DNA of 40,625 nucleotides. Source: Verrucomicrobiota bacterium. GTDB taxonomy: Bacteria; Verrucomicrobiota; Verrucomicrobiia; Limisphaerales; UBA9464. Position 1 is the stretch's first letter. Every line of letters starts with the position of its first letter. The translations under genes and the position numbers were made by a program. The stretch spans positions 1 through 40,625 of the forward strand of contig CANGMH010000003.1 of NCBI GenBank assembly GCA_947454005.1, in the 5' to 3' direction. The notes under the pieces are model-generated. The model did not search any database. It was not told the origin of the DNA and saw nothing but the letters and a program-made list of their open reading frames with translations. Below are positions 7,449 through 17,610 of the stretch, piece after piece.

Positions 7449-7652
7449 GCAGGATGGCGTTCGGCGGCGTTGCGGCGTTCGGGCGGCTTGGGTCGGAAGC
7501 CTCGGGCCTCAGGTCTAAGGCATCGAGGGGTGCGGTTTGAAGGCCAAACGCACCGGGCCTCCGATACCGACGCGATCACCGGACCGGTGCCGGGCGGGAT
7601 CGGGAGAGACGACAGTACGACGCTCTCGAGCGTCGCAGTCCAAGAGGGGAAG

Positions 7653-8684: not shown

Positions 8685-8888
8685 CTGCCGCGAGCGTAGC
8701 CGTCGCCCCGCCGCGTGTCAGCCGGCGCGCACCGGAAGCGGTCCGCGGAGCGGTTTGCGGGCGCCCGCATTGTCCCAACGCGGCGCTTGACCCGTTTCCC
8801 GGCGGTTTCCTACTTTCCGCACTCTTTGCCGGGACGCCGACTCGCGTCGCCCCGGTGCGTCCGAACGTCAGCCAAAAAGGAAATCATC

Positions 8889-13092: not shown

Positions 13093-14096
13093 TGAAGCTG
13101 TCCGCCCTCATCGCTTCGATCGTCGGTCGCATCCGCAAAGCGGCGATGCCTCCGTCGGACGGGGGCGCGCTCCTGCACGACACGGTCCGGAGGCGCCGGG
13201 CGGTCGGGATCCTCGGCCTGCTGCTCGCCGGCGGACTCGTGTTCGCGCAGCGCGGAGGTGGAGGACGCGGCGGTCGCGGCGGCGGCGGCGGGTTCATGGG
13301 CGGAGGCGAGATCCAGGTGCCGGAGGACGTCCATACCGCGCGGGAAGTCGGCACGCGCAGCACCGGCACGCCGGTCTGGACCAACCCGCCCGCGTTCGGC
13401 CAGGACGTGTTCACCTTCGCCCGCATCCGCTACGACAAGAACCCGAACGGCCACCACTTCCGCGGCGGCGGCGGCTGGACCACCGACCTGCCCGACGCCG
13501 ATCTCAACCTGCCGTATCGCGTCCAACAGATGACCTCGATCCGGACGGACGCCGATGGACGCCTCATCCACCTCACCGATCCGGACCTGGTCCGCTATCC
13601 GTTCCTGTTCCTCTCGGCCGCCGGCAACCTCTACCTCACCGCCCCCGAGACCGAGGCGCTGAGGAAGCACCTGCTCAACGGCGGATTCCTGCTGATGGAC
13701 GATTTCTGGGGCGACAGCGAATGGGCCAACGCCGAGAACGTGTTCAAGGAGGTCTTCCCGGACCGGCACTTCATCGAGCTGCCGCTGGACCATCCGCTCT
13801 ACCACAGCGTCTTCGAGATCAAGGCGAAATACCAGAACGCGAACTCCATGCTCGGCGTCCGCAGCGAGCAGACCGGCGTGACCTGGGAGGACAACCATGA
13901 CGGCGACGTCCGCACCGTCCACCACCGCGCCATCCTAGACGACAAGGGCCGCCTGATGGTCCTCGCCCTGCACAACACGGACACCGCCGACGGTTGGGAA
14001 CGCGAGGGCGAGAACGACTACTACTTCCACAACTTCTCCGAGAAGATCGCGTTCCCTCTCGGCATCAACATCATCTACCACGTGATGACGCATTGA
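13092..14096 (+). CDS. DUF4159 domain-containing protein (copy 1)
   Basis: ATG at 13092 overlaps the upstream stop (TGATG). 334 aa: signal/TM, Gly-rich RGGGGRGGRGGGGGF, FTFARIRYD...LRKHLLNGGFLLMDDFWGDSEW...FPLGINIIYHVMTH. Confidence 0.85.
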   Translation: MKLSALIASIVGRIRKAAMPPSDGGALLHDTVRRRRAVGILGLLLAGGLVFAQRGGGGRGGRGGGGGFMGGGEIQVPEDVHTAREVGTRSTGTPVWTNPPAFGQDVFTFARIRYDKNPNGHHFRGGGGWTTDLPDADLNLPYRVQQMTSIRTDADGRLIHLTDPDLVRYPFLFLSAAGNLYLTAPETEALRKHLLNGGFLLMDDFWGDSEWANAENVFKEVFPDRHFIELPLDHPLYHSVFEIKAKYQNANSMLGVRSEQTGVTWEDNHDGDVRTVHHRAILDDKGRLMVLALHNTDTADGWEREGENDYYFHNFSEKIAFPLGINIIYHVMTH

Positions 14097-14111
14097 CCGG
14101 GATCTCCTCCG

Positions 14112-15137
14112 ATGGACACGCCCTTCTCACATTCGCCGGACCGCGCCACGAAGGCGCCGGAACCGTCGTCGGTGGCGGGCAAGCTCCGGGGGATCATAAG
14201 GCGGCTCGCCGCGGCGTCGCCTTGGAGGACCCGAGGGTCCGCCCTCCCGAGGAGGTGGGACGCACTCCCGCCACTGGGATCCCGCTTCGTGCTGGTCGTC
14301 GTCTGCATCTCCTTCAGCTTCCTCGTGCTCGGCCAACGACGGTTCCGGGGCGGCTGGGGAGAGACCTTCATCGGCGAGACCGAGCGCACGGCCCGCGAGG
14401 TCAGATCGCACAGCACCGGCACGCCCGTCTGGACCAACCCGCCCGCCTTCTCGACCGATGTCTTCACCTTCGCCCGCATCCGCCGCGACAGCGGCGGGTT
14501 CAGCCGCGGCGCGCCTTGGTCGACCGACGCCCCGGACAGCGATCTCAACCTCTCCTACCGGCTCCAGCAGATGACCTCGATGAAGGTCGATCCAGACGGT
14601 CGATTCCTCCGGCTCACCGACCCCGATCTTCCCCGCTATCCGTTCATCTACATGGTCGAACCCGGCAGCCTCTACCTGAGCGAGCCCGAGATCGCCGCGC
14701 TGAGGAAGTACCTGCTCAACGGCGGGTTCCTCATGCTCGACGACTTCTGGGGCGACAGCGAATGGGACAATGCCGAGGACGTGCTCAAGCGCGTGCTGCC
14801 CGAACGCAGCTTCGTCGAGTTGTCCCTCGATCACCCGGTCTACCACGGCGTGTTCGAGATCAAGTCCAAGGGACAGGTCCCCAATATCCGCACCGGCGAG
14901 ATGAGCCAGTACACCGGCGTCACCTACGAGGAGAACCACGACGGCGACACCCGGACCGTCCATCACCGCGCCATCTTCGACGAGAAGGGCCGCATGATGG
15001 TCATCGCCACCCACAACACCGACAACGGCGACGGCTGGGAACGCGAAGGCGAGAGCGACTTCTTCTTCCGCAACTTCTCCGAGAAGATCTCCTATCCGCT
15101 CGGCATCAACATCATCTACTACGCGATGACCCACTGA
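14112..15137 (+). CDS. DUF4159 domain-containing protein (copy 2, paralogue of the preceding gene)
   Basis: 341 aa; DVFTFARIRRD..., LRKYLLNGGFLMLDDFWGDSEWDNAEDVLKRVLPERSF..., YPLGINIIYYAMTH closely matches copy 1. Confidence 0.87.
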   Translation: MDTPFSHSPDRATKAPEPSSVAGKLRGIIRRLAAASPWRTRGSALPRRWDALPPLGSRFVLVVVCISFSFLVLGQRRFRGGWGETFIGETERTAREVRSHSTGTPVWTNPPAFSTDVFTFARIRRDSGGFSRGAPWSTDAPDSDLNLSYRLQQMTSMKVDPDGRFLRLTDPDLPRYPFIYMVEPGSLYLSEPEIAALRKYLLNGGFLMLDDFWGDSEWDNAEDVLKRVLPERSFVELSLDHPVYHGVFEIKSKGQVPNIRTGEMSQYTGVTYEENHDGDTRTVHHRAIFDEKGRMMVIATHNTDNGDGWEREGESDFFFRNFSEKISYPLGINIIYYAMTH

Positions 15138-16211
<1,074 letters not shown>

Positions 16212-16239
16212 AGGGGCCAGCTATTCTCCAAGAAGACAA

Positions 16240-16581
16240 ATGAGCGACGACAATCCGCGCCACCGTGAGTTCACCGGAGCGATGCTCAACATTTACCGTT
16301 GCGCATTAACCGAAGCTGGTTACCGCGCTTCACTCTTCTTCAACATGGTTAGCGACCAAGGCGGCTATCAGACAGCCATGACGCTTATCCATTCTTCGCG
16401 TCCCTCGGACGGATACACTGCGCTCCATCAGCGTCAACGGCTCGACCTTACCGTGGAAGCGTTGGTCCTTCGGCCCCAGTGGCACGACATCTTCACCGAC
16501 GACGACCGCCGAGCAGCTCATGACCGACTGGTTGAGTATGTGTACTCACTTCCAGCCGACTCTTGGCGCCCATCGACATGA
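16240..16581 (+). CDS. Small hypothetical protein of a widespread uncharacterised family (MLNIYR...GY...MVS..GG...A...LI....[23 protein letters not shown])
   Basis: 113 aa, ATG at 16240; conserved-looking motif pattern; lower-GC codon usage than neighbours. Confidence 0.75.
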
Positions 16582-16592
16582 TTTCGCTTTCA

Positions 16593-16634
16593 AATCAGCT
16601 AAGCCTCAACGCATCGCTGCGTCCTGAGCTGATT
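16593..16634. repeat. Nested inverted repeat downstream of the small ORF
   Basis: Outer arms AATCAGCT (16593-16600) / AGCTGATT (16627-16634); inner ACGCA-TCGC-TGCGT (16609-16622). Confidence 0.6.
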
Positions 16635-16647
16635 GCCCGCTAGTTCG

Positions 16648-17610
16648 ATGACCGCCCCCGCCTCCACCCCATCTCTGCCTTCCGCCTCGCTCATCAGCGC
16701 GCAGGCGCTGATGGGCATCCGCAACCTCGAGTTGCGGGCGCGCGCGGTGGTCGAGGGCTTCTGGAGCGGACTCCACCGCAGCCCGTACCACGGCTTCTCC
16801 GTGGAGTTCACCGAGTACCGCCAATACACGCCGGGCGATGATCCCCGGCATCTCGATTGGCGCGTCTTCGCGCGGAGCGACCGGTATTACATCAAGAAGT
16901 TCGAGGACGAGACCAACCTCCGCTGCCATCTCGTCGCGGACCAGAGCCGCTCGATGGATTTCGGCTCGATCGGCCACACCAAGGCCCGCTACGCCGCCAC
17001 GCTCGCCGCCACCCTCGCCTACTTCCTCCATCTCCAAGGCGACGCCGTGGGATTGCTCACCTTCGACGAACGCCTCCGCGACTATCTGCCGGCGCGCCAT
17101 CGTTCGAGCCATCTGCGCCAGATCATGCTCGCGCTGGAGAAACCCGCCGGCGGCGCGGCCACGGACCTCGCGGCGCCGCTCCGGCGGATCACCGAGCTGG
17201 TCCGCAAACGCGGGCTGGTCGCGCTCGTCTCCGATTTCCTCGCGCCGCTCGAAGGACTGGAGCGCAGCCTGACCGACCTCGCGGCCTGCCGGCACGAGGT
17301 CGTCGTCTTCCAGGTGCTCGACCCCGCCGAGCTCGGGCTGGTCTTCGACCAGGCCTCGATCTTCCGCGACGCCGAGACCGGACGCACCCTCTACGTCGAT
17401 CCGGCCGCCGCGCGGAAGGGCTACGTGCAGAAGCTCGAGGCGCACTGCGCGGAGCTCCGCCGCATCTGCGACAAACTCGGCATCACCTACCACCGGCTCG
17501 CGACGGACCAACCGCTGGAGCTCGCGCTCTTCGATTTCTTGCGGCAGCGCATGCACCGGGGGACCACGGCCCGGGCGGTGGCCGCAACCTCGGGGAACCT
17601 CCCAGCATGA
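16648..17610 (+). CDS. DUF58 domain-containing protein
   Basis: 320 aa from ATG 16648; GFSVEFTEYRQYTPGDDPRHLDWRVFARSDRYYIKKFEDETNLRCHLVADQSRSMDFG (DUF58 signature, DxSxS). Confidence 0.93.
   Translation: MTAPASTPSLPSASLISAQALMGIRNLELRARAVVEGFWSGLHRSPYHGFSVEFTEYRQYTPGDDPRHLDWRVFARSDRYYIKKFEDETNLRCHLVADQSRSMDFGSIGHTKARYAATLAATLAYFLHLQGDAVGLLTFDERLRDYLPARHRSSHLRQIMLALEKPAGGAATDLAAPLRRITELVRKRGLVALVSDFLAPLEGLERSLTDLAACRHEVVVFQVLDPAELGLVFDQASIFRDAETGRTLYVDPAAARKGYVQKLEAHCAELRRICDKLGITYHRLATDQPLELALFDFLRQRMHRGTTARAVAATSGNLPA

Follow-up and report, generated by a model that had tools for sequence, protein, structure and literature searches.

A single gene, probably acquired horizontally, at the MoxR|DUF58 junction of a Verrucomicrobiota operon encodes a small helical domain with probable links to phage defence

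The window, by which we mean the whole stretch of 40,625 nucleotides that was analysed, contains an operon in which the genes for a MoxR-type AAA+ ATPase and a DUF58 protein are separated by a short segment of low [G + C] content. The features around this junction are the following.

15138..16211, forward strand: MoxR-type AAA+ ATPase gene, left neighbour (open reading frame; Pfam AAA_3, 1e-62)
16206..16214, forward strand: GGATGAAGG, last stretch common to the window and its closest relative, G002 (blastn breakpoint and G002 sequence)
16215..16646, forward strand: low-GC insert of 432 bp, without counterpart in G002 or other relatives
16240..16581, forward strand: open reading frame of 113 amino acids (protein P0001), a small all-helical domain
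16593..16634, forward strand: imperfect hairpin 3' of the open reading frame (arms 16593-16603 and 16624-16634)
16647..16651, forward strand: right GATGA, which holds the DUF58 start ATGA
16648..17610, forward strand: DUF58 gene, right neighbour (open reading frame; Pfam DUF58, 1.8e-54)

The 3' end of the MoxR gene reads GTGATCGGATGA, and the DUF58 gene begins with ATGACC at 16648, an in-frame TTG at 16633 being an alternative start. A first reading of the sequence alone had described a low-GC segment of about 440 bp with a separate open reading frame at this place, and both parts of that description are correct. The GC content of 0.562 over 16212-16643 compares with a window mean of 0.697 (sd 0.027; 432-bp windows), making the insert the lowest-GC 432-bp window in the whole 40.6 kb, and the GC3 of its open reading frame, read in frame, is 0.63 vs 0.88-0.94 in the flanking genes. 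It had also been assumed that the remaining junctions of the operon are ATGA overlaps. This does not apply to all of them, DUF4159b|MoxR being TGA-ATG and DUF4159a|b having a gap of ~15 bp. Upstream of MoxR lie two DUF4159-type genes in tandem (window 13136-15137), each of which also cross-matches the counterpart of the other in relatives, at ~70-77% DNA identity.

The genome that contains the window (G000) and G002 are colinear over 5182-26156 at ~94% DNA identity, and blastn between them gives clean breakpoints at the junction, at 16214 and 16648. Elsewhere in this colinear region G002 shows two further insertions with respect to the window, of ~2.3 kb and 0.33 kb (L051 7259-9624 and 10711-11040), near window positions 7602-7649 and 8735-8740. 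In the family, MoxR and DUF58 mostly overlap or lie at most about 50 bp apart. The congener G005 reads exactly GGATGAAG, showing that the predicted empty site exists, and other genera also have empty ATGA junctions. The expectation of an empty site in close relatives is thereby borne out for G005 and these genera, but not for the genomes most similar in sequence, as the site is occupied in G002, G003, G004, G014 and G020. The segment is a real and clean insertion of one foreign gene at the coupled MoxR|DUF58 junction.

The P0001 gene was found in none of the 38 relatives searched, and in the phylum it is carried by two of 388 genomes including its own, the other match being a homologue with 33% identity. 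Together with the empty junction of G005 and the breakpoints against G002, this upholds the earlier proposal that a single gene was acquired. Relatives of P0001 occur at 129 loci in many phyla of the species-level collection, and in a maximum-likelihood protein tree the window copy joins a copy from Acidobacteriota (Pyrinomonadaceae) with support of 97/83, apart from two Verrucomicrobiota copies and on a long branch (1.59). The absence in relatives, the scarcity in the phylum and the placement in the tree support horizontal acquisition. The long branch may indicate that the window copy is old or degenerating, and a gain in G000 is not fully separable from a loss in G002. The same branch would fit a gene ancestral to the clade and lost in the relatives, whose composition would reflect relaxed constraint and not transfer. 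Such an ancestry is extremely improbable given the single distant match among the other genomes of the phylum, a nearest tree neighbour that belongs to another phylum, and the empty ATGA junctions of the wider family.

The motif GATGA occurs at both borders (16207-16211 and 16647-16651), as had been noted, with the suggestion of a possible 5-bp target duplication; this interpretation finds no support. Where two genes are coupled, the stop of the first and the start of the second share ATGA, and any insertion that spares both genes would tend to leave this motif twice. The repeat is nearly forced because ATGA is the stop/start coupling motif, only the preceding G being free, and the match of that base is roughly a one-in-three event. 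Moreover, the two 65-bp border regions have three different 5-mers in common (GATGA, CTCCA and AGCTG), and the left side of G002 reads GGATGAAGGCTCC, running on as its first DUF58-start copy with a DUF58-like coding start, so that the left homology reaches 16214, past the end of GATGA. From these three observations a target-site duplication is not supported, and a duplication beyond chance was rejected as a candidate.

Insertion of a minimal non-autonomous cassette by a transposition-like event, with duplication of GATGA, would account for the motif at each border and for the plausible ATGA junction obtained when the borders are joined. It is nevertheless very unlikely, since the MoxR stop and the DUF58 start by themselves account for the repeated ATGA, the two further 5-mers are shared by chance, and the sequence common to G002 extends beyond GATGA. 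The insert also lacks a transposase, and there are no terminal inverted repeats at its borders, where the longest inverted match is 7 bp and internal to MoxR; the sequence-only reading was right on both points. The check for other copies and shared ends that it proposed gave a negative result: the segment is single-copy, with 20-40 bp chance matches as the only others in its own genome or in relatives, its DNA has no match in plasmids and relatives beyond short chance matches, and its ends are not common to the inserts of relatives. The GATGA repeat would rather be the coupling motif left twice than a footprint of transposition.

In this clade the MoxR|DUF58 junction has been interrupted repeatedly, by REP/transposase arrays and by at least three other small genes. 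In G002 it contains REP repeats, a Y1 transposase gene (Y1_Tnp) and duplicated DUF58 starts: the first ~110 bp of DUF58 are present at least three to four times, with palindromic repeats in between, a copy number that is uncertain because contigs break inside the array. Each DUF58-start copy of this array (L046 2570-4063 and L003) is followed by GCAG..CTGC-type palindromes, with the Y1_Tnp gene among them. A gene of ~204 amino acids lies at the junction in G003 and G004; of 188 genomes in the class, only these two have it. G014 and G020 harbor different small open reading frames (100 and 108 amino acids), coupled to MoxR and with an ATGA overlap to a truncated DUF58 copy, and the truncated copies and repeats are followed by a PemK/MazF-like gene in G014 and a DUF559 nuclease gene in G020. 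The truncated DUF58 5' copies of these two genomes (L006 for G014, L138 for G020) carry CCCTCTCCCC/GGGGAGAGGG repeats. Finally, the junction holds 457 bp in G451 and 168 bp in G446. The insert of G000 does not resemble those of its relatives. The small genes of G000, G003/G004, G014 and G020 all lie directly after MoxR in the same direction, a shared orientation that over four cases is expected one time in eight by chance and proves little. In G003, G004, G014 and G020 the DUF58|VWA junction, too, has been enlarged, by repetitive-looking sequence with no obvious gene, so that the looseness is in part a feature of these lineages themselves.

The most economical account of the entry would be illegitimate recombination at a site that repeats and duplicated DUF58 starts had disturbed beforehand, although the shared GGATGAAGG is the sole pointer to it. 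A more specific version supposes that a duplicated DUF58 5' end and repeats were present at the junction before the gene arrived, much as in G002 today, and that the gene replaced most of them via illegitimate recombination or came by REP/Y1 transposase activity. The DUF58-start copies (three or more), REPs and Y1_Tnp gene of G002 favour it, as do the match of the left border to copy 1 of G002 over the shared stretch and the arrangement in G014 and G020, where truncated DUF58 copies and repeats accompany a small gene. However, there is no REP at the G000 junction, the insert has no residual similarity to G002 or G014 beyond chance, and the three bases AGG, which match beyond the stop codon once the shared ATGA-A is set aside, carry little weight; we regard this route as possible but doubtful.

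The inverted repeat reported 3' of the gene is present, but it is imperfect (11-bp arms with one mismatch, 16593-16603/16624-16634), its folding is unremarkable (z of -1.8 as DNA and about -0.45 as RNA) and it does not recur in the homologues, as a common mobility signal would. In a separate observation, strong GTAG-type palindromes (REP-like) lie directly 3' of two solo homologues (L063 and L094; fold z of -4.1 and -5.0). The hairpin raises the idea of an integron gene cassette integrated at a secondary site, with the hairpin as its attC, and a Vibrio plasmid homologue does lie between VCR-like repeats, which makes that copy an integron cassette. For the window such an origin is unlikely: the hairpin is not significant, Rfam gave no match for the insert, and the left border, by inspection, does not open with TTRRRY. 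No attC-like R''/R' pair was found in the window or in most homologues, a result of low power, as the Vibrio site likewise escaped the home-made detector.

P0001 matches no entry of Pfam, NCBIfam, PADLOC or PHROGs, and by Pfam is itself neither GmrSD_N (PF03235) nor DUF1524, the C-terminal HNH part of GmrSD; no credible relative was found among PDB sequences. The AlphaFold model is confident and all-helical (pLDDT 90.5, pTM 0.81), and a Foldseek search of PDB and viral models returned no hit below E = 0.4. P0001 shares 35-51% identity with 51 aligned family members, in which G58, L62, L68, E73, F85 and L97 are invariant. It has the conserved core Y..A....Y.A..F..M and the motif that opens with S[DE] and continues over 16 further letters, while the W of the family's LWER is replaced by H in the window copy. 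The most conserved stretch of the family is RLDLTVEAL, and no catalytic motif was recognised. A literature search brought up nothing specific to this domain, nor to the insertion of single genes at operon junctions.

Among the 84 homologous loci examined, 37 carry the domain in an open reading frame of more than 200 amino acids. In 29 of these 37 long homologues GmrSD_N is present and the domain forms the C-terminal part. The actinobacterial loci L069, L072, L075 and others encode GmrSD_N proteins of ~755-840 amino acids whose C-terminal domain is that of the window gene and is covered by no Pfam model. In L096, L127 and L137 the domain is instead N-terminal and runs on into an HNH or McrA-like nuclease region; one long open reading frame also matches Arr-ms, possibly by read-through into a neighbouring gene. 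Solo copies lie next to genes of restriction and defence, their neighbours including genes for SNF2/ZorD-like helicase, NERD-UvrD, McrBC, RmuC, Vsr, LlaJI, YgjP and DUF4062, and several adjoin housekeeping genes (ThiC, YchF, FAD oxidoreductase), in a survey of neighbours without a matched random control. Further copies are found on plasmids and phage contigs. The G000 genome, though no more than 89% complete, has no match to GmrSD_N (PF03235), so no partner was found there. The extra domains listed for GmrSD do not include that of P0001 (PMC4619093).

A helical domain placed at either end of different nucleases would most simply be an adaptor, a targeting or a regulatory module. On the basis of its fusions and of the settings of its solo copies, P0001 is best read as an accessory module of DNA-targeting defence that spreads horizontally, in which role it would be a standalone copy of a domain found elsewhere in GmrSD_N (DUF262) proteins and HNH nucleases, most likely serving phage defence directed at DNA. 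The housekeeping neighbours of several solo copies and the lack of a GmrSD_N match in G000 weigh against this reading. We therefore favour, as the probable explanation, a horizontally acquired solo domain gene at a tolerant MoxR|DUF58 junction, likely an accessory phage-defence module. According to this scenario, a single foreign gene would have landed at the junction of a conserved MoxR/DUF58/VWA operon and decoupled it, at a site that in this clade seems to tolerate repeated insertion, and P0001 would be expressed by read-through of the operon. A bolder proposal, which we consider unlikely, is that the junction is a recurrent landing site where an undescribed route places unrelated small genes in the direction of the operon, without element ends, and that the passenger here is a free-standing DNA-targeting defence module that spreads singly and plugs into host nucleases in trans.

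The acquisition itself is an ordinary one and does not define a new kind of element; what makes it interesting is the uncharacterised defence-linked domain, together with the repeated use of the junction. The family is widespread yet unnamed, and neither a solved nor a viral structure resembles the confident model. The GmrSD_N and HNH fusions make the domain a testable candidate for a phage-defence module that moves on its own, being found in an integron and on phage contigs, and a conserved coupled operon can repeatedly take up small foreign genes if the downstream start codon is kept.

Several known systems share features with the locus. GmrSD/DUF262 type IV restriction proteins (PF03235) have the same domain at the C-terminus in many actinobacterial members, whereas the window gene is the small domain alone, in a genome where no GmrSD_N gene was found. 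Integron cassettes with a single small gene, such as the Vibrio homologue, are likewise promoterless, but the window gene is without an attC found (by a weak test) and lies inside a conserved operon. REPs and REP-associated Y1 transposases (RAYT) are represented by the REPs and Y1_Tnp at the same junction in G002, whereas the G000 insert contains neither. Finally, the interrupted operon is one of the MoxR-DUF58-VWA operons, whose gene order most of the family retains, but in the window the translational coupling of MoxR and DUF58 is broken.
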